Assembly (NCBI RefSeq): GCF_000730285.1
Contig: NZ_CP007174.1
Location: 496,001 to 560,000 of the forward strand
DNA length: 64,000 nucleotides
Reading direction: 5' to 3'
From: Candidatus Nitrososphaera evergladensis SR1
GTDB lineage: Archaea; Thermoproteota; Nitrososphaeria; Nitrososphaerales; Nitrososphaeraceae
Shown piece after piece: positions 2-30,163 of this stretch (its first letter is position 1; each line of letters begins with the position of its first letter). The translations under genes were made by a program, and so were the position numbers. The notes beneath the pieces were generated by a model. It was not told where the DNA came from. It did no database searches and worked only from the letters and a program-made list of their open reading frames with translations.

Positions 2-568
2 TACGACGACTACTTTTTTGTCATGGTGCAGAACTTTGAGGATAAATACACAGTATGGACGCACAGGATAAGCGAAGAACAAGAGGAGACCGACGCCAAC
101 AACAACGACGACGATGATAGTGATGACAATTCGGGTCAACAACAGCAAATGGAGATGATAACTATGAGCGGATCATTGGTGGACAATAGAGGCGACAGCA
201 GCACTGACAACAACAACGACGATGGTGATGGCGGTTTGTCTCTCGTAAATGTGCAAGTCTATTACGACAGCCTGCCGACCCCAGAGATTTACGAGCAACA
301 TAGATACGACAAGTCATACGGTTTGGGCAAACTCATCGCTCTTGTAGCAGAGCCTGCGCCAGAAGGCACTGCCTATAAACAACCTGACAAATTCTCTATC
401 ATAGAAGCTCAAAACTGGCAAGCACAAGGTTCGGAATTTGACATCGCCTTCTCTTTGCAGGAACTATCCGATACATATGGAAAGGGAGTTTACACGATAG
501 TGATGCTTGCCCAGAATTCAGAAGATGAAGTGCTTCCCACATCTGAAACATCTGTTTTCGTGAACTAG
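2..568 (+). CDS. Secreted-type protein, C-terminal part (5' partial)
   Basis: The frame is open to the left edge, and codons before the first ATG (position 23) read as ordinary protein, so the gene probably starts outside the window. The visible part has a folded-looking start (FEDKYTVWTHRIS), an Asn/Asp/Gln/Ser-rich linker (about residues 25-75), then a roughly 100-residue beta-rich end with alternating hydrophobic strands. Such low-complexity linkers recur in the exported proteins of this region, so an extracellular location is likely. No family recognised. Confidence 0.6.
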   Translation, partial: YDDYFFVMVQNFEDKYTVWTHRISEEQEETDANNNDDDDSDDNSGQQQQMEMITMSGSLVDNRGDSSTDNNNDDGDGGLSLVNVQVYYDSLPTPEIYEQHRYDKSYGLGKLIALVAEPAPEGTAYKQPDKFSIIEAQNWQAQGSEFDIAFSLQELSDTYGKGVYTIVMLAQNSEDEVLPTSETSVFVN

Positions 569-1589: not shown

Positions 1590-4316
1590 TCATCGTTCCA
1601 ATTTTTTGAAATAGATCTCGGAATTCACATTGTCGACGGCGCTGCCATTATTATTACTGCCGTTGTTGCTAATGACGTGCTCTTCCCATGCGATGTAGAC
1701 GTTGTCGCCTTCTGCAATTATCTGCGGGAATACGGAATTACCGGCGGTGGTATTGCTGATGTTTATGGTGTCTGAAAATGTTACTTCAAAATCATTGTTG
1801 CTTGTTGCCGATGTAAAGTTGGCCTCTCTAAAGTATATGTCGTATGCCCCCGAAGCATCGTCCATCCAGACCACATAGACATTGCCGCTGCCAGAGACGG
1901 CAATCTCCGGCAGAATCGACTCTCCCGTATTATTGCTCAAGGTCCAGTAATAGTAGGGAAAGGGGTTATTGTTATCTGTCGCATTGCTTTTTGAGAAATA
2001 TATGTTGCGGTTTCCAATTGTTCCATCCGACCAGACGATGTAGGCGCTATTGTTACTAGAGCTGGCGTTGCCTCTGCCGTCCGTATTATTATTGCTGTTG
2101 CCCTGTTGGTCAAGGTTCCTGCCCGCTGTGGTGGCAGTAGTAGTAATGGCAAGGTGATGAAGCGGGCCTATTGCGGGATCAATCCGTGTAGTCATGACCG
2201 ATGTTGGTTTGCTAAATGTAGTGCCATTGTCTTGGCTTGATGCAAACCCTATGGCTCCTGTCGTCGCGCCAGTTTCATTCCTTCCCGAGTGCTGCCATAT
2301 CACATACACGCTGCTGTTATTTCCATCAACCCCTGTTGCTATCTGCGGCTTGTCATCCTGAAGATAGTTGTTGCTTATGTTGACTACTGGCCCAAGCGTA
2401 AGCCCATTGTCTGAGATATGTCTAAAAAATATCTCGCCGTCTCCGCGAGTATCGTCTGCCCACGCCACGTAGACATTGGAACCTGACAATCCTATGCGAG
2501 GGGAGTGTGACTCTCCCGTATTGTTGCTCAGATTTACGGGTTCGGCTAACAATGATCCATCCGGCCCGATTCTTGTAAAGAAAATATCTCCCTCTCCAAC
2601 CCGTCCTTGCTGCTGTTGCTGCTGTGCTCCTGCCGTAGGTACTATTAACGGATGAACGGTCCAAACAACATATGCCGCAGCAGCGCCACCGCCTTCCTCG
2701 CCGTTACTTCCAGACGCTGCGATAATCTGTGGATTGCTGGAGTACAGCGGGTAAGCGAGCGATAACGACTCTGGTTCTGGAATTCCAGACGTGCCACCGC
2801 TTATATCAAATGGGCCTTGAAAGGTTCTTCCGCCATCATCACTTTTTGAAAACAATATGTGCGAGTCTTGCCTGTCTTGCGAAGCGGCGTAAACATTTTC
2901 AATCCATGTGACATAGACGCTGCTCCCAGAGGCAGCGATCTGCGGCGAGTAAGAATTCCCGTATATACTGCCGTTGTTCCGGATAGGCGCGCTGAGATCC
3001 ACTGCCCTGTCAAAAGAGTCTCCGCCGTTTGTGCTCCTTGCAAAGAAAATGTCAAAACTGCCCAGTGACCCTGTGCTGTTGTCCACCCAGATTGCATAGA
3101 CATTGTTGCCAGAGGCCGCCATCATGGCGTTGCTGCTGACATCTTCGGCTGTCAGGAAAAAGGACGAGAACCCATCGTCGTTGCTTAGGTTGAGAATTGA
3201 ATCGTCATCATTGCTATTGTTTTTATTGCTGCTGACGATTGTTGCAGGCATCAAGCCTTTTTCTTCTTCTCTTTGTTGCTGTAGCGAGCGTTGTACCGTT
3301 GTCGTCGTCCCGTTGCCGCCATCTGACTGGAAATAGCTCAATGCTGACCGCACGTCATGAACCTCTATTACCTTCATGCCGTACTGCTTTTCCATCACAT
3401 ACGAAAGCGACTTTTCTTCTAATCTGCACGTGTTGGACTTTGCTGGCGTGTCGAAAGATGATGATGAAGACGATTCTGGATGTTGTTGTTGACAAGATAC
3501 CTCCGGATAATAACTCTGGCCAGCTGGAACCAGCATTACCTTTGCCCCGTACCTTCCTGCAGCGACTGCCTTTTCGATAATCCCTCCAACAGGGCCTATA
3601 GTGCCATCCGGGTTTATCGTTCCCGTCATGGCCGTATAGTTGTTGACTGCCTTTCCTTCAAGTTCTGAAACCAACAGGACAGTCATGGCTCCTCCGGCGC
3701 TTGGGCCGTCGACGCCTCCGCCAAATTTTCTTAACATTTCTTCGCTTTCCGTAGAATTTGTGCTTTTTATCGTGAGTACCACATCTTTTGAAGATAGGTC
3801 TTCCTGCGTCAGTGATTGGGCTACCGACGCCGCGGTCCTAGCAGAATTCTGCCACATCCCTCCTGAAAAAATATTTGTGTTCACCAAGATGTCTCCTCTG
3901 CCTTCTCTAACATCTATCATTAGTTTTAGCACCTGGCCGGAACCCGGAAAAACCGTGCCGGTGGCTTGATCCGAAATAACGGCCAGAAAAGGAATGGACT
4001 GACTTTGTGCCTGAGAAGAAGGCGATGATAATAATAATGATGATGATGCATTGCCTGACGACGTACCAGTGTTGTTGCCATCAGAAATGCCCGGCGGCTG
4101 CTGTTTTTGTGCAATTGTTTGATGATGACTAGTGCTTGGCTGATCGGCTGATACAAACATGCCTTCTCTTTCCTGCGCTAACAACGCCGGCGAGGCAGCC
4201 GTGAGATTGGATTGAGTGCTTGCTGCAACAGGCGTCATGAACGCGTATTGGAATATGGCCAGAAACGAGGTAATAATTATCAGGAATGCCAAAAGACATC
4301 TGCAAGAGACGCGCAC
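1590..4316 (-). CDS. Membrane-anchored Lon-type (S16) protease domain fused to BNR-like repeats
   Basis: 908 aa. A signal anchor (residues 8-28) is followed by a Ser/Gln/Asn-rich linker (to about 105). Residues 107-330 resemble the proteolytic domain of Lon: GVDGPSAGGA puts the nucleophile at Ser206 and GPVGGIIEKA the base at Lys249, the same 43-residue spacing as Ser679/Lys722 of E. coli Lon. No AAA+ ATPase module is present. From about residue 390 the protein is a series of about 60-residue repeats of the form PQIAASGSSVYVTW...DIFF with Asp-box-like STNGGDSF, SDDGGRTF and SSQDNGTTF, as in sialidase/BNR propellers. The likely product is an extracellular ATP-independent protease with a large binding propeller. 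Upstream ATG 4316 immediately precedes the signal anchor. Substrate unknown. Confidence 0.85.
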   Translation of the reverse strand: MRVSCRCLLAFLIIITSFLAIFQYAFMTPVAASTQSNLTAASPALLAQEREGMFVSADQPSTSHHQTIAQKQQPPGISDGNNTGTSSGNASSSLLLSSPSSQAQSQSIPFLAVISDQATGTVFPGSGQVLKLMIDVREGRGDILVNTNIFSGGMWQNSARTAASVAQSLTQEDLSSKDVVLTIKSTNSTESEEMLRKFGGGVDGPSAGGAMTVLLVSELEGKAVNNYTAMTGTINPDGTIGPVGGIIEKAVAAGRYGAKVMLVPAGQSYYPEVSCQQQHPESSSSSSFDTPAKSNTCRLEEKSLSYVMEKQYGMKVIEVHDVRSALSYFQSDGGNGTTTTVQRSLQQQREEEKGLMPATIVSSNKNNSNDDDSILNLSNDDGFSSFFLTAEDVSSNAMMAASGNNVYAIWVDNSTGSLGSFDIFFARSTNGGDSFDRAVDLSAPIRNNGSIYGNSYSPQIAASGSSVYVTWIENVYAASQDRQDSHILFSKSDDGGRTFQGPFDISGGTSGIPEPESLSLAYPLYSSNPQIIAASGSNGEEGGGAAAAYVVWTVHPLIVPTAGAQQQQQQGRVGEGDIFFTRIGPDGSLLAEPVNLSNNTGESHSPRIGLSGSNVYVAWADDTRGDGEIFFRHISDNGLTLGPVVNISNNYLQDDKPQIATGVDGNNSSVYVIWQHSGRNETGATTGAIGFASSQDNGTTFSKPTSVMTTRIDPAIGPLHHLAITTTATTAGRNLDQQGNSNNNTDGRGNASSSNNSAYIVWSDGTIGNRNIYFSKSNATDNNNPFPYYYWTLSNNTGESILPEIAVSGSGNVYVVWMDDASGAYDIYFREANFTSATSNNDFEVTFSDTINISNTTAGNSVFPQIIAEGDNVYIAWEEHVISNNGSNNNGSAVDNVNSEIYFKKLER

Positions 4317-24363: not shown

Positions 24364-24461
24364 GACAGAAAAAGAATGCGCAGGCGCCTCATTATAACAA
24401 TATCTTGTGTGTATGCACGCTTAAACGCTCAAATACCATTGCATCCCGCTATAACCCAGAG

Positions 24462-25307
24462 ATGGCAACGACTGAACTGGACAACAACGGCAGCAGCAGT
24501 CAGGAGGTCATTTATCTTGACTGGAACAATGCCTTGGACGTGCTTGAAAAAGCCTACAAGGCCGGGCTTTTTGTGCTCATCATCGGCCCCAAGGGGACCG
24601 GCAAGACCACGCTTGTGCGCAAGTTTGCCTCGGCGATGGAAAAAGAGCTTTATTCCGTAAACTTTTCGCTCAGGACAAGGGAGTCGCACCTTGTCGGCAC
24701 GAGGACCATTGACAAGGGGCAGATAAATTTTGTCGAAGGCGTGCTGGTAAAATCGATGAAGGAAGGAACGATGCTGTACCTTGACGAGCTAAACGCCGCC
24801 GAAGCTGATGTCCTTTTGCGCCTTGACGAGGCCCTTGACGACAGGCGCCAGCTGGTGCTCAAGGAGGCCGAGGGCCAGCTTGTCAAGGCATCGCCGGACT
24901 GGTTCGTGATTGCAACGATAAACCCGCTTTCGCACGTGGGGACAAAGGAACTGCCGCCTCAGCTCTTGAGCAGGTTCCCGGTGAGGATGAGGCTTGACTA
25001 TCCGCCAGAAGACCTGGAGCTGGAGATAGTAAAGAGGCACGTCAAGATGGACAACGATGACGGCAAGATGCGCGACGTCAAGCACGCAATCCAGCTTGCA
25101 AGGAGCCTGCGCGATGCGGCAGCCGTTGAAGAGCTGTATTACAGCCCGTCGCTCCGGGAGACCATAGCATTTGCCAAGATGCTAAACGCAGGGCTTTCAG
25201 GCAGGCAGGCTGCCGAGGTTGTGTACGCAAACGCGTACGACCAGTGGGGCCAGGTGGAATACCAGAAGGTGCTGGACATGATAACCTCTATCTTTGGCGA
25301 CAAGTGA
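24462..25307 (+). CDS. MoxR-family AAA+ ATPase
   Basis: 281 aa from ATG 24462. Walker A GPKGTGKTT (Lys48), Walker B MLYLDEL (Asp108), sensor region INPLSHVGTKELPPQLLSRFPV. Closest in architecture to CbbQ/NorQ-type MoxR proteins, which remodel metalloenzymes together with a VWA partner. It directly precedes and nearly overlaps such a VWA protein, so the two form one transcription unit. TATA-like CGCTTAAACG lies about 40 nt before the ATG. Client unknown; the neighbouring copper oxidase and di-iron protein are candidates. Confidence 0.92.
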   Translation: MATTELDNNGSSSQEVIYLDWNNALDVLEKAYKAGLFVLIIGPKGTGKTTLVRKFASAMEKELYSVNFSLRTRESHLVGTRTIDKGQINFVEGVLVKSMKEGTMLYLDELNAAEADVLLRLDEALDDRRQLVLKEAEGQLVKASPDWFVIATINPLSHVGTKELPPQLLSRFPVRMRLDYPPEDLELEIVKRHVKMDNDDGKMRDVKHAIQLARSLRDAAAVEELYYSPSLRETIAFAKMLNAGLSGRQAAEVVYANAYDQWGQVEYQKVLDMITSIFGDK

Positions 25308-25311
25308 CACG

Positions 25312-26892
25312 ATGTCCAAGCTTGAAAAAAGCGTGATGCGAAACGACATCCTCCTGGACATCGCCACGTTTCTTGCCCGCAGGTGGTCCGGCAATGACAA
25401 GACAGTCGTCGCGCTTGCGCCAGACAAGCCGCCTGCCACAAAGCCGGACAAGAGCCAGGTGACGCTTCCGACGCTTGCATACTATGTCGGCACGGATTTC
25501 CAGAAATACAGGCAGTGGCGCGTCGCCCTCTGGTACGAGTCTATGCGCATGCGCCATTCAAGCAAGGTTCTCTCAAACGAGCACGCGTTTGGCTTCCTCT
25601 TGAACACGCTTGAAACAAAGCGCGTCGAGATTCTTGGACTTGCCGACTGGGAAGGCATGGAAAACGAGCTGATATTTTACGAGGGGATATCGTGGCAGTC
25701 CCGGCAACTTTTGAACACCATCTACGGCAGATACAAGATTGCAGAGGCGTTTTCGCAGTATTTCCTGACAGGCTATGTAAAGGGCGAGCTTTTCGGGGGC
25801 GAGCTTGAAAAGGTGCAAAAGGCCGTTGAGTTTGCCAACGAAGTGGTAAAGGAGGCCCTTGACAACAACTATGGCACAGAGTGGGTCGAGCAGCAAATTC
25901 CAAAGTTGATAAGGATGCTGGAGCTTGACCCGCTAGTCTCCATACCCATCCTTGCGCCCCGCACAAGGATGGGCGCATCGCTGACGCAGCAAGACGTACT
26001 AAAGCAGATAGAAAAAGTCGTCAGGACGAAAAAGAAAGAGAAAGACTCTGAGGAAAAGTCCAAAGAGATCTACGAAGGAAATGACGTCCTGCACGAGTTT
26101 GAGACCCTGGTCAAGGAGAGCAAGAAAACCGAGAACAAGGGCTACGACAGCCTGGAGAACTTTGGCCTGAGCGTGCCGGACAGGATGGACGTAGACGAGA
26201 CGCAGATCTACGACCTAGACCTCATACAAAAGGTCAAGGCCGCTTTCAGAGAGTGGAAGACAGGCTGGGTGGAGCGCCACGACGAGATGGGCGAGGAGCT
26301 TGACATCGAGACTATTGTAGAGTCGCTGCCAAAGCCCTTCCTCACCGACGTGAAACTATCAATAAGGTCCAAGGTCGTCCTGCTTTTGGACCATTCAAGC
26401 AGCATAGCCGACGTGGAAACGGAATACAAGCAGGCAACCGTCGCGCTCTGCGAGGCGCTCAGCTACCTTGGCGTGAAATTTGCCGTGTACGCGTTTTCCA
26501 CAGAGAACCGGCAGGTAAAGTGCTGGGTGGTCAAGCCGCCCACGGTAAAGTGGTCGCTTGTGTGCGCCCGCAGGCTCGTGCAGATAAAGGCGGTGGGCGG
26601 GACCCCGCTTGCAGAAGTCTATGGGCTCTTGCAGCCGGTGCTAAAGTCGTTCAAGCCCGACATATTTGTGACCCTGACCGACGGCGAGCCGTCCGACTTT
26701 GACGCCGTGAGGGCGATGGTGCTTTCCTACCGCAAGGTCGGGATAAAGATGGTGGCAATAGGCGTTGGGCGCAACCTCAGCGACGCAGTGGGCATCGGGC
26801 AGAACCTGAAATACCTGAACTATGAAAAGACCCTGTCTGTTAGCAGGCTCCAGGACATGCCAAAAAAAGTGATAAAGCTCTTGCGCACCTAG
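25312..26892 (+). CDS. VWA-domain partner of MoxR (CoxE/NorD-like)
   Basis: 526 aa from ATG 25312, 4 nt after the MoxR stop; an overlapping TTG start at 25294 is possible. The C-terminal 180 residues are a von Willebrand A domain with complete MIDAS: DHSSS (Asp360, Ser362, Ser364), the Thr in GGTPLAEV, and Asp in TLTDGEPSD. The long helical N-part has a charged segment (VRTKKKEKDSEEKSKEIY). Pairs with the ATPase as in NorQ/NorD or CbbQ/CbbO, where the VWA subunit recruits the client. Its stop overlaps that of the convergent transaldolase. Confidence 0.9.
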   Translation: MSKLEKSVMRNDILLDIATFLARRWSGNDKTVVALAPDKPPATKPDKSQVTLPTLAYYVGTDFQKYRQWRVALWYESMRMRHSSKVLSNEHAFGFLLNTLETKRVEILGLADWEGMENELIFYEGISWQSRQLLNTIYGRYKIAEAFSQYFLTGYVKGELFGGELEKVQKAVEFANEVVKEALDNNYGTEWVEQQIPKLIRMLELDPLVSIPILAPRTRMGASLTQQDVLKQIEKVVRTKKKEKDSEEKSKEIYEGNDVLHEFETLVKESKKTENKGYDSLENFGLSVPDRMDVDETQIYDLDLIQKVKAAFREWKTGWVERHDEMGEELDIETIVESLPKPFLTDVKLSIRSKVVLLLDHSSSIADVETEYKQATVALCEALSYLGVKFAVYAFSTENRQVKCWVVKPPTVKWSLVCARRLVQIKAVGGTPLAEVYGLLQPVLKSFKPDIFVTLTDGEPSDFDAVRAMVLSYRKVGIKMVAIGVGRNLSDAVGIGQNLKYLNYEKTLSVSRLQDMPKKVIKLLRT

Positions 26893-27554
26893 AACGACAG
26901 GTTCGGGTTTTCCTTCTTTACCTTTTCCCAGTCTGCAAGAAATGATGCGAGGCCCTTGTCGGTTAGCGGGTGTGCCATCATCTTGCCAAGGATGTCAGGG
27001 GGCAGCGTAACTACGTGGGCGCCGATCTTGCCGGCCTCTATCACGTGCATAGGGTGGCGCACGCTTGCAACAAGCACGTTTGTCGTGAACTTGTAATTGC
27101 TAAAGATCTGCACTATCTCCCGTACCAGTGTCATGCCGTCCTGCCCCGCGTCGTCCAGCCTGCCTATGAACGGGCTGACGTACGATGCGCCCGCCTTTGC
27201 AGCAATCACCGCCTGGTTTGCAGAGAATACCAGCGTGACGTTTGTCTCTATGCCCTCCTCCTTGAGCTTTTTGACCGCCCTCATGCCATCGGGGAGCATC
27301 GGTATCTTGACGACGACGTTTTTGCCGTATTTTTTCAGCCTGTGCGCTTCTTCCATCATGCTGTCGTAGGTGGTGCCCACGACCTCCAGGCTCACAGGGC
27401 CCTTGACGATGCGCACGATTTCGCGCATGATCTGTGCCGGGTTTTCCTTCTCCCTTGACAAAAGAGTAGGGTTGGTGGTGATGCCGTCAACGAGGCCCAT
27501 GTCGTTGTACTTTTTTATAGATTCAAGGTTGGCCGTGTCAAGAAAGATCTTCAT
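26889..27554 (-). CDS. tal: Transaldolase, small FSA/TalC type
   Basis: 221 aa from ATG 27554 (KIFLDTANLESIKKYND). Schiff-base lysine Lys83 in NVVVKIPM; DGITTNPTLL and VSPFIGRLDD motifs are intact. Length and motifs match the short transaldolase / fructose-6-phosphate aldolase subfamily. The ATG follows the transketolase C-half stop by a single base, so translation is coupled. It is the third gene of a pentose-phosphate operon read as tktN-rpe, tktC, tal; together they interconvert C3-C7 sugar phosphates for ribose and erythrose-4-phosphate supply. Confidence 0.93.
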   Translation of the reverse strand: MKIFLDTANLESIKKYNDMGLVDGITTNPTLLSREKENPAQIMREIVRIVKGPVSLEVVGTTYDSMMEEAHRLKKYGKNVVVKIPMLPDGMRAVKKLKEEGIETNVTLVFSANQAVIAAKAGASYVSPFIGRLDDAGQDGMTLVREIVQIFSNYKFTTNVLVASVRHPMHVIEAGKIGAHVVTLPPDILGKMMAHPLTDKGLASFLADWEKVKKENPNLSF

Positions 27555-27555
27555 T

Positions 27556-28536
27556 TTATTTTCTAATCCTGCTCCTTGCTTCAATTACTGCCTTTGCTAT
27601 TTCTGTTGCGGTCAGGCCGTACTTGTCCAAGAGCGTGTCAACTTCCTCGTCCCTTGCCGACTCGCCAAACGTGTCGCGCACGCCGACGCGCTTTATTGGA
27701 ACCGGATATGTCTCGCCTGCCGCCTCTGACACCGCCCCGCCTAGGCCTCCGATGATGTTGTGCTCTTCGGCGGTGGCAATCGCGCCTGTTTCCTTGGCGC
27801 ATTTTGCCACGAGGTCAAAGTCGATTGGTTTTATAGTGAACATGTCGACAACCCTTGCAGAGATGCCCTCCTCGCGCTTTAGCGCGCTTGCCGCTTCCAG
27901 CGCTTTTCCAACCATCAAGCCGCACGCTATTATAGTCGCGTCAGAGCCGTCCACAAGCACGTTGCCCCTGCCGACCCTGAACTGGTCCGCCGGAGTAGAT
28001 TCTGCATAGACAAGCTCTGTAGTCGGCCTTGCAAGGCGCATGTAAAAGGGGCCCGGCGTGTCTACCATGGCCTTTATCAGGTGCCTGACTGCAACTGCGT
28101 CTGCAGGGACGGTGACGCGCATGTTTGGCATGGCGCGAGTAGCGCTAAGGTCTTCAATCTGCTGGTGCGACGCGCCGTCCGGGCCGACCGTGAGCCCGCC
28201 GTGCGACACTACCAGCTTGACGTTGAGCGCAGGATAGCATATGGCGTTTCGGATCTGGTCGACTGCCCTTCCAGGTATAAAAGCCGCATAAGTGCTTGCA
28301 AACGCCACCTTGCCTGCAATTGCCAGGCCGGCGGCTATTGAGACGAGGTTTGCCTCTGCGATTCCCACGTTGAACATGCGCTCGGGGTACTTGTCGCCAA
28401 ATTTCTTGGTCTTGAGCGAGTCGGTGGTGTCTCCCCCGACGCAGACTATGCGCGAGTCGGTCTTGCCAAGTTCTACCAAGGCGTCGCCGTACGCGCCCCT
28501 CATGTCTGCCGTCTTTTTCTCGCTACTTAATAGCAT
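27556..28536 (-). CDS. tktB: Transketolase, C-terminal subunit
   Basis: 326 aa. Contains the pyrimidine-binding and C-terminal transketolase domains: RMFNVGIAEANLVSIAAGLA, FASTYAAFIPGRAVDQIRN (cofactor Glu in GIAEAN), SHGGLTVGPDGASHQ, and the late TAEEHNIIGGLG. The TPP diphosphate-binding half is on the upstream gene, so the enzyme is split, as usual in archaea. Its start overlaps the upstream gene by 14 nt, showing tight coupling. It forms the active enzyme with the N-part of 28523-30163. Confidence 0.95.
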   Translation of the reverse strand: MLLSSEKKTADMRGAYGDALVELGKTDSRIVCVGGDTTDSLKTKKFGDKYPERMFNVGIAEANLVSIAAGLAIAGKVAFASTYAAFIPGRAVDQIRNAICYPALNVKLVVSHGGLTVGPDGASHQQIEDLSATRAMPNMRVTVPADAVAVRHLIKAMVDTPGPFYMRLARPTTELVYAESTPADQFRVGRGNVLVDGSDATIIACGLMVGKALEAASALKREEGISARVVDMFTIKPIDFDLVAKCAKETGAIATAEEHNIIGGLGGAVSEAAGETYPVPIKRVGVRDTFGESARDEEVDTLLDKYGLTATEIAKAVIEARSRIRK

Positions 28537-30163
28537 GGAGCTCCGCCTCTATCCCAAGTTCGGAAGCGTACGGAATCAATATATGTTTACGCGCTTTCAT
28601 CCAGTCGCTCCTTATGCCAAGGCGCGTTGCGTGGTCAAGAAGCTTCCTCTCAAGCGCCACTGCTGCCTTGTGGCGCAGCTGTATCACCGCGGTGTGCACG
28701 TCGGTGTTGCCATAGACGGCGTTGCCAGCCACAAATATGCGCGCGCCGGCGTCGTACACCTGCGGCAATGTTGTTGAATCAATGCCGCCGTCGGCCTCTA
28801 TGTATCCTTTAAAGCCGTGCTCGCGAAGTTTCTTGTTCACGGCCACCATCTTTGGGAGCACTTCGGGCATGAATTTTTGGCCTGCAAAGCCGGGGTTGAC
28901 CGACATGACAATCACGACGTCGACGTTTGAGATGTGCGGGTACAGCCACTCCGGTACGTCCGTCTTGGGGTTTATGGCGATCCCGGGGCTGATGCCTGCT
29001 GCCAGGCACCTGTCCTGTATCTGCACGAACTCATCCTCATTGCACGCCTCCGCGTGGACCGTGATGACGTCGCAGCGCGCGTCGATGTACTCGTCAATGT
29101 GCGCAAGAGGCTTTTCTATCATCAGGTGCGCGTCAAACGGAAGCGCAGTCACGCGCCGCAGGCGCTTTATCGTGTCTGCAAGGAACGTGGTGTTTGGCAC
29201 GAACTTGCCATCCATGACGTCGAGGTGTATCATCTCCACCCCCTCGCGCTCGACCTTGCGTATCTTGTCCTCGTAGTTCTCCTTCTCGCCGGCGATTATA
29301 GAGGGCGCTATGAAGTATTCGCTTTCCAGCTCTTCAAGGAGCACCGGGGTCTGCTTTTTCGACGGCGCCTTTCCGTGCCACTGCGGGTTGTTGGCCATGT
29401 GGCGTATGCCGTTTCCCTTGACCGTGTTTGCGACTATCATCACCGGCTTGTCCTTTACCTGGGCCGCCCTGTTTAGCGCGTCCACCAATTGTTCGACGCG
29501 GTGGCCGTCGACTTCAAACACCTGCCAGTTGAACGCCTCCCACTTGTTCTTTGCCGGGTCAAGGGGCATGATGTCCTCGGTAAAGCCGTCCTGCTGGATG
29601 CGGTTCCTGTCAAGCACCGCGACCAGGTTGTCAAGCTTGAACTTTGCAGCCGCCATCGAGGCCTCCCATATCTGGCCCTCGTTTGACTCGCCGTCGCCTA
29701 TCATGACATAGACGCGGTTTTTCTTGCCGTCCAGCTTGCTTGCAAGCGCGATGCCGACACCTACAGACAGCCCGATGCCTTCTGACCCTCCAGAATACTC
29801 GATTCCGGGCACGCTGTGGTCCTTCTGGCGCTCCGAATAGCGCACGGGGTGGCCCTGAAGGCGCGACCCCAGCTTGCGCAGAGTTTTCAACTCCTCCGGC
29901 GGGAAATAGCCTGCCACCGCAAGCGTGGAATAGTAGCCGGGCGCAGAATGCGCCTTTGAATTGATGAAGTAGTCGCGCTCTTGCCAAGACGGGTCTTTTG
30001 GGTCGTGTCTCATCCTGCGGAAGTAGAGCGTGCTCATTATCTCTGCGGCTGAAAATGACGCGCCGGGGTGGCCAGAGCCGGCCTCCGCGATTCCCTGAAT
30101 GGCCCACATGCGGACCTCGCGTACCTTTCTCTTTAGTTCCAGATAGCGCATGTCAAATCCCAT
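28523..30163 (-). CDS. Transketolase N-terminal subunit fused to ribulose-phosphate 3-epimerase
   Basis: 546 aa. Residues 1-270 are the transketolase N-half: GSGHPGASFSAAE, AHSAPGYYSTLA, TPP motif GDGESNEGQIWEA (157-169), NTVKGNGI. A short link (KKQTPVLLEELESEY) leads to a complete ribulose-5-phosphate epimerase (285-510): IAPSIIAGE, metal ligands His313 and Asp315 (IHLDVMDGKFVPN), His346 (DAHLMI), SVNPGFAGQKF, Asp458 (EADGGID). A helical tail of about 35 residues follows. One chain would thus make xylulose-5-phosphate and use it in transketolation with the downstream TktB. No frameshift is visible at the join. Confidence 0.93.
   Translation of the reverse strand: MGFDMRYLELKRKVREVRMWAIQGIAEAGSGHPGASFSAAEIMSTLYFRRMRHDPKDPSWQERDYFINSKAHSAPGYYSTLAVAGYFPPEELKTLRKLGSRLQGHPVRYSERQKDHSVPGIEYSGGSEGIGLSVGVGIALASKLDGKKNRVYVMIGDGESNEGQIWEASMAAAKFKLDNLVAVLDRNRIQQDGFTEDIMPLDPAKNKWEAFNWQVFEVDGHRVEQLVDALNRAAQVKDKPVMIVANTVKGNGIRHMANNPQWHGKAPSKKQTPVLLEELESEYFIAPSIIAGEKENYEDKIRKVEREGVEMIHLDVMDGKFVPNTTFLADTIKRLRRVTALPFDAHLMIEKPLAHIDEYIDARCDVITVHAEACNEDEFVQIQDRCLAAGISPGIAINPKTDVPEWLYPHISNVDVVIVMSVNPGFAGQKFMPEVLPKMVAVNKKLREHGFKGYIEADGGIDSTTLPQVYDAGARIFVAGNAVYGNTDVHTAVIQLRHKAAVALERKLLDHATRLGIRSDWMKARKHILIPYASELGIEAELHAIK

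Follow-up and report, generated by a model that had tools for sequence, protein, structure and literature searches.

The stretch of DNA analyzed here (the window; 64,000 nucleotides of the Candidatus Nitrososphaera evergladensis SR1 genome) encodes, on its minus strand, a protein in which the N-terminal half of a transketolase (TktN) and a ribulose-phosphate 3-epimerase (Rpe) share a single chain. The gene for the other half of the transketolase (TktC) comes next, and that for a transaldolase lies beyond it. The genes, and the parts of the fusion, are as follows:

28523..30163, minus strand: tktN-rpe fusion gene, an ORF with its ATG at 30163 and the end of its stop at 28523 (stop codon included); 546 aa
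29354..30130, minus strand: Transketolase_N (TPP/PP) domain, residues 12–270 (PF00456, E 3.4e-50)
29312..29329, minus strand: the join, residues 279–284, placed by the alignment of fused proteins, gene-end comparison and AlphaFold2
28712..29311, minus strand: ribulose-phosphate 3-epimerase domain, residues 285–484 (Ribul_P_3_epim PF00834, E 4.1e-58)
28526..28669, minus strand: C-terminal tail, residues 499–546, found among the compared proteins in fused ones only
27556..28536, minus strand: tktC, with Transket_pyr and Transketolase_C domains (Pfam); its start overlaps the stop of the fusion gene, by 14 nt
26889..27584, minus strand: transaldolase/fructose-6-phosphate aldolase family gene (TalC/MipB type; TIGR00875, 297.1 bits against a cut-off of 245.95)

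A preliminary description of this region had claimed an in-frame fusion of a complete TPP-binding transketolase half to a complete epimerase at 28523–30163, followed directly by the transketolase C-half and a transaldolase, and the ORFs and Pfam matches bear this out: TktN precedes Rpe within one chain, in a thaumarchaeal host. The epimerase match runs from position 2 to 198 of the 198 in the profile (196.5 bits; cut-off, 21.1) and so represents a full-length domain. Of the transketolase domains, PF00456 alone falls on the fusion ORF, and the Pyr and C-terminal domains sit in the next ORF, as befits the N-subunit of a split transketolase. Among the more specific profiles, NF004076 scores the fusion at 212.9 bits, over its own cut-off of 165, and TIGR01163, the rpe equivalog, at 202.8 bits, slightly below its cut-off of 212.6; the transketolase equivalog NF004559, which was built for one-chain transketolases, scores the separate halves at 293.4 and 287.3 bits, below its cut-off of 488. 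The window genome (2,954,373 bases, one contig) contains a single epimerase match and a single TktN match at E ≤ 0.001, both of them in the fusion ORF.

The next large ORF upstream of the fusion, for an M17 aminopeptidase, runs in the opposite direction, so that a three-gene unit, one that would be transcribed as an operon, probably begins with the fusion. On the plus strand, at 24405–26892, a gene for a MoxR-type AAA ATPase and a VWA-domain gene overlap each other; this pair is convergent with the transaldolase gene and overlaps its end by 4 nt. Elsewhere in the window, an ORF of 908 aa (1590–4316, minus strand) has a match to the Lon C-terminal protease-like domain at residues 127–265 only. 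RpiA has one match in the window genome. Profile search found no match there to the HPS family, and to the PHI family only sub-cut-off matches, in frames of 319–618 aa; the HPS-PHI route to ribose was, therefore, not found in the window genome.

The preliminary description proposed a search for the same domain order in other archaea, and such a search finds the fusion repeatedly. When 300 genomes of the phylum were searched with the epimerase profile, the match lay within a single frame of 545–571 aa in all four genomes of the family we call f1, to which the window's own copy belongs, and in all 43 of the family f2 (47 of 47); TktN is in the same frame as the epimerase in every f1/f2 gene read. 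In the three f3 genomes of this sample, the match lies in separate, shorter frames of 269–293 aa. The sample also holds 101 unmatched genomes, 20 of which are listed in order of kinship, the first ones being outside the order. The order-wide sample yields epimerase matches in 354 of 400 genomes. At least four f1 genomes in it have no match (G418, G449, G471 and G457; completeness 65–85%) and at least four have partial matches (G406, G473, G474 and G480), and there are 26 further unmatched genomes that may include members of f2. Among the genomes examined for gene order, G082, G501, G503 and G186 have two matches each, yet one open frame of 565–570 aa.

Beyond these two families, the fusion was not found in the genomes of two further phyla or in the listed loci of a public genome scan outside f1/f2. 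Of the 145 genomes in the phylum of G651, 127 match the epimerase profile; three of the strong matches lie in frames of more than 500 aa (G793, G757 and G746) with no TktN in the stretches read—those of G746 excluding the upstream end—and the remaining strong matches are in frames of 396 aa or less. The phylum of G650 (115 genomes) has 15 strong matches, in frames of 218–243 aa. Among the matches listed in the public scan, from which 80 loci were kept, one is fused, and it comes from a Nitrososphaera sp. record whose protein is 82% identical to the window's.

Recurrence on this scale disposes of one mundane explanation, raised in the preliminary description, that a sequencing error had created a false fusion. 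Every one of the 47 f1/f2 genomes has the fusion-size frame, and many of these genomes are single contigs; 39 aligned fused proteins show no insertion or deletion at the join; an error is ruled out on these grounds. Broken frames in two f2 genomes (G519 and G634) indicate that errors of sequencing or assembly may occur in draft genomes. For the window itself we found no sign of one, and a thaumarchaeal Tkt-N/Rpe fusion is already in print, in the accessible part of PMC11237513, so that the chance of an artefact here is negligible.

The 39 aligned proteins are 47–88% identical to the window's, and they are strictly conserved where catalysis would demand it. H313, D315, H346 and D458, which we take to be the epimerase metal ligands, and which the preliminary description counted as all four, are invariant in this alignment and in 97 of 97 epimerase rows (96 genes) that include unfused and distant enzymes. 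The residues E278 and P287, which flank the join, are also invariant, as are K70, H72, D157, G158, E159, N187 and K249 of the TktN part. By motif and constant offset, these last seven correspond to TPP/metal-binding residues of the Carboxydothermus transketolase as described in the available text of PMC7661550.

A larger set of complete fused proteins comprises 54 f1/f2 loci, 33 from f1, including the window's own copy, and 21 from f2; it represents 53 genes, one being present twice (L024 and L036, both from G227). Excluded from it were L046, which has an internal TGA close to its start; L047 and L077, truncated by contig ends; L092, whose frame is broken; and L001 and L002, which duplicate the window's own locus. 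On the unfused side, L072 and L094 were left out, together with the duplicates L062–L064 and L074–L076. Ten TktN positions and three epimerase positions are at least 95% fixed in the fused rows and common to at most 10% of the unfused, but because the fused rows form one clade this may reflect descent alone. Two further changes affect the epimerase. All 44 f2 and unfused rows have an aspartate at position 293 (window 29285–29287, minus strand), whereas all 33 f1 rows have another residue there, glutamate in 22 of them, and the loop PGFxGQ has become PGKSGQ in 18 of 21 f2 rows; because of these substitutions, the fused epimerases may have altered kinetics.

All 54 rows (53 genes) continue beyond position 498 for another 38–49 residues. 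L508 and W521 of this tail are invariant throughout. The 23 unfused relatives lack such a tail: at the same position, f56, f61 and f62 proteins have 4–9 residues, those of f3 have 10–28 and no tryptophan, and 20 distant epimerases have 4–21. The C-terminal stretches (approximately 55–61 residues) of ten f2 rows share only 21–30% identity with that of the window protein, and the stretch of one f1 row (L112) shares 22%; the case for homology of the tails is, in consequence, made by where they lie and by L508 and W521. Comparison with Pfam gave no match of note (best E 0.049, single members only), and comparison with PDB sequences none that convinces (best E 1.5).

AlphaFold2 predicts the window protein with a mean pLDDT of 86.5 and a pTM of 0.89; block means in the tail are 85–97, and low confidence is confined to stretches of TktN. 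A member of f2 that is about half identical to it gives 86.8 and 0.88, from an input alignment that has most of its rows in common with the first. For a two-domain chain, pTM values of this size are consistent with a fixed position of the epimerase relative to TktN, although they speak to it only indirectly. In Foldseek and VIA-align 2 comparisons, the two parts of the protein match the split transketolase 6yak and epimerases. TktN aligns with chain AAA of 6yak at Z 34.4 and rmsd 2.4 over 277 residues, an alignment that includes some stray pairs beyond the TktN domain, since its range is 4..456. The epimerase part, residues ~281–504, aligns with 5umf_C at Z 30.8 and with 2fli_C at Z 30.4. The longest alignment among the structural matches listed covers 277 of the 546 residues.

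How such a fusion might have come about is indicated by the sister families. In f3, f56, f61 and f62, tktN and rpe are separate frames, adjacent and on one strand, at all 23 loci compared (L064, L081, L067, L079 and others); tktC follows rpe at 22 of these, none being shown at L082, and a transaldolase gene is recognizable behind tktC at some of the loci with a long enough stretch. These are the genes of the window, in the same order, and their epimerases are the nearest to the fused ones in the tree; they differ in having separate, overlapping or close frames, and in being without the tail. At four of five f3 loci and both f56 loci, a possible rpe start and the tktN stop share 4 nt; at L022, the rpe starts found are 104–131 nt behind the stop, and in f61 and f62 possible starts range from 16 nt before it to 45 nt behind. 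One further family of the order, f66, does not fit this pattern: in all four of its genomes examined, tktN and rpe are not in tandem but lie apart. Other arrangements occur: tktN-tktC-rpe in Bacillota (L118, L120, L122 and L125; Lachnospiraceae, Butyrivibrio and Clostridiales records) and in two other, archaeal, members of the phylum (L003 and L004), and rpe-tktN-tktC in one bacterial record (L131).

The join itself is economical. TktN of unfused f56 ends ..KEELGL, and the equivalent stretch of the fused proteins enters the first epimerase strand about five residues later (..EELESEYFIAPS); the last TktN helix continues into that strand, and no linker has therefore been added. The location of the fusion on only one transketolase half, from which the preliminary description had argued that the assembled complex would channel Xu5P/Ru5P, is explained by the gene order of the sister families, since there it is rpe that separates tktN from tktC. 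That description was right about the fusion, about its completeness and about its neighbors; the one-half location calls for nothing beyond this order.

A tree of 101 epimerases (quick method, SH-aLRT support only, midpoint root), which takes in 42 of the 54 fused rows and 17 of the 20 'out' rows, has the branching order f61, f62, f56, f3, then f1 with f2. The 42 fused epimerases form one branch, with an SH-aLRT support of 93, under the mark of 95; f1 has 97 and f2 has 100. f3 is not a single clade, and the tree leaves 43 of its 98 inner branches open. The tree fits one fusion event after the split from f3.

The fusion as such is already known. Of 98 thaumarchaeal assemblies in a 2024 mSystems paper, 73 have the N-terminus of Tkt joined to Rpe (cluster 341.1), and what the accessible portion of that paper describes has the same domain order and lineage as the window, with nothing different in kind (PMC11237513). 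That portion is silent on how the genes are ordered in unfused sisters, on the missing linker, on the family-level distribution and on the tail. New here are the unfused sister gene order, the single branch of fused epimerases, the tail and pTM values consistent with a fixed domain arrangement. The same pages describe an archaeal Hps-Phi fusion that likewise joins two pentose-related steps in an archaeal lineage, but the enzymes and the route are others. Two further papers, in the parts available, mention the non-oxidative pathway in these archaea and not the fusion (PMC7265257 and PMC11131427).

A close parallel to the transketolase part is found in Carboxydothermus hydrogenoformans, in a split-gene enzyme which, according to the accessible text of PMC7661550, is an active alpha2beta2 complex without the PP-Pyr linker, roughly 70 aa, of one-chain enzymes. 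The window's enzyme shares with it (6yak) the TktN/TktC division, the lack of that linker and, by motif, the TPP residues; it differs in the epimerase, no such part being named for the Carboxydothermus enzyme in that text, and chain AAA of 6yak has 282 residues. Stand-alone epimerases (PDB 2fli and 5umf) have the same fold and metal-ligand residues as the fusion, whereas the window's epimerase belongs to a longer chain and is followed by an additional tail, and some families depart from them at position 293 and in the phosphate loop. Our search of the open-licence literature found no biochemical study of the activity or complex of the fused protein.

Taken together, the evidence argues strongly for a split transketolase with a bifunctional subunit, one that arose by fusion a single time and whose main effect is most likely on stoichiometry and joint assembly. 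The fused protein is likely to be bifunctional, judging from its conserved residues. Its TktN part would pair with TktC, from the next, overlapping gene, to make a transketolase with two copies of each chain—a heterotetramer, if the Carboxydothermus enzyme is a guide—and each TktN chain would bear a C-terminal epimerase domain, presumably active. With TktC, transaldolase and RpiA, the fusion would complete a non-oxidative pentose phosphate pathway; an autotroph would most likely use it to make pentoses from F6P and GAP. The two genes would have fused a single time, in the ancestor that f1 and f2 share: in a tktN-rpe-tktC operon already in place, with tktN and rpe adjacent or overlapping, the tktN stop would have been lost. 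With the fusion goes the helical tail at the C-terminus that unfused relatives are missing. Its main effect would most likely be fixed stoichiometry and joint assembly of both activities, and locally raised Xu5P/Ru5P is possible.

Other constructions can be placed on these observations. Fusion might have been nearly neutral, a chance loss of a stop between overlapping genes whose product served as well as two proteins, with the tail kept later for stability. The tktN and rpe genes do overlap or lie within tens of bases of one another in most unfused sisters, and each domain retains the catalytic residues of its own family, but not one of the 47 f1/f2 genomes has reverted, no indel has entered the join in 39 rows, and two tail residues are invariant in 54 of 54 rows (53 genes); we think this account somewhat unlikely. 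We are more skeptical that the fusion is a channelling device, in which the epimerase is held so that Xu5P moves directly between the two active sites. A join free of linker and indels would suit such a device, two pTM values of ~0.9 suggest the fixed arrangement it requires, and a clade-specific tail could lock the domains. However, the gene order accounts for the fusion without selection for channelling, and sister families with the same order manage without any fusion, so that channelling strikes us as quite improbable.

A more elaborate possibility, which we regard as doubtful, is that epimerase and helical tail replace the PP-Pyr linker of one-chain transketolases. The tail would then dock on TktN or TktC and place the epimerase near the transketolase site, in a two-step complex of enforced one-to-one stoichiometry, fixed in the f1/f2 ancestor, with proximity transfer of Xu5P a possible consequence.

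The bifunctional subunit we favor, fused for stoichiometry and joint assembly, is of wider interest because it is an old, well-sampled and apparently single-origin natural fusion of consecutive enzymes, and because the unfused order survives in sister families. This makes for a clean system in which to ask whether fusing an epimerase to a transketolase alters flux, or only assembly. The fusion also sits on a pentose route on which these ammonia-oxidizing, nitrifying archaea may depend, given that no HPS-PHI alternative turned up in the window genome.
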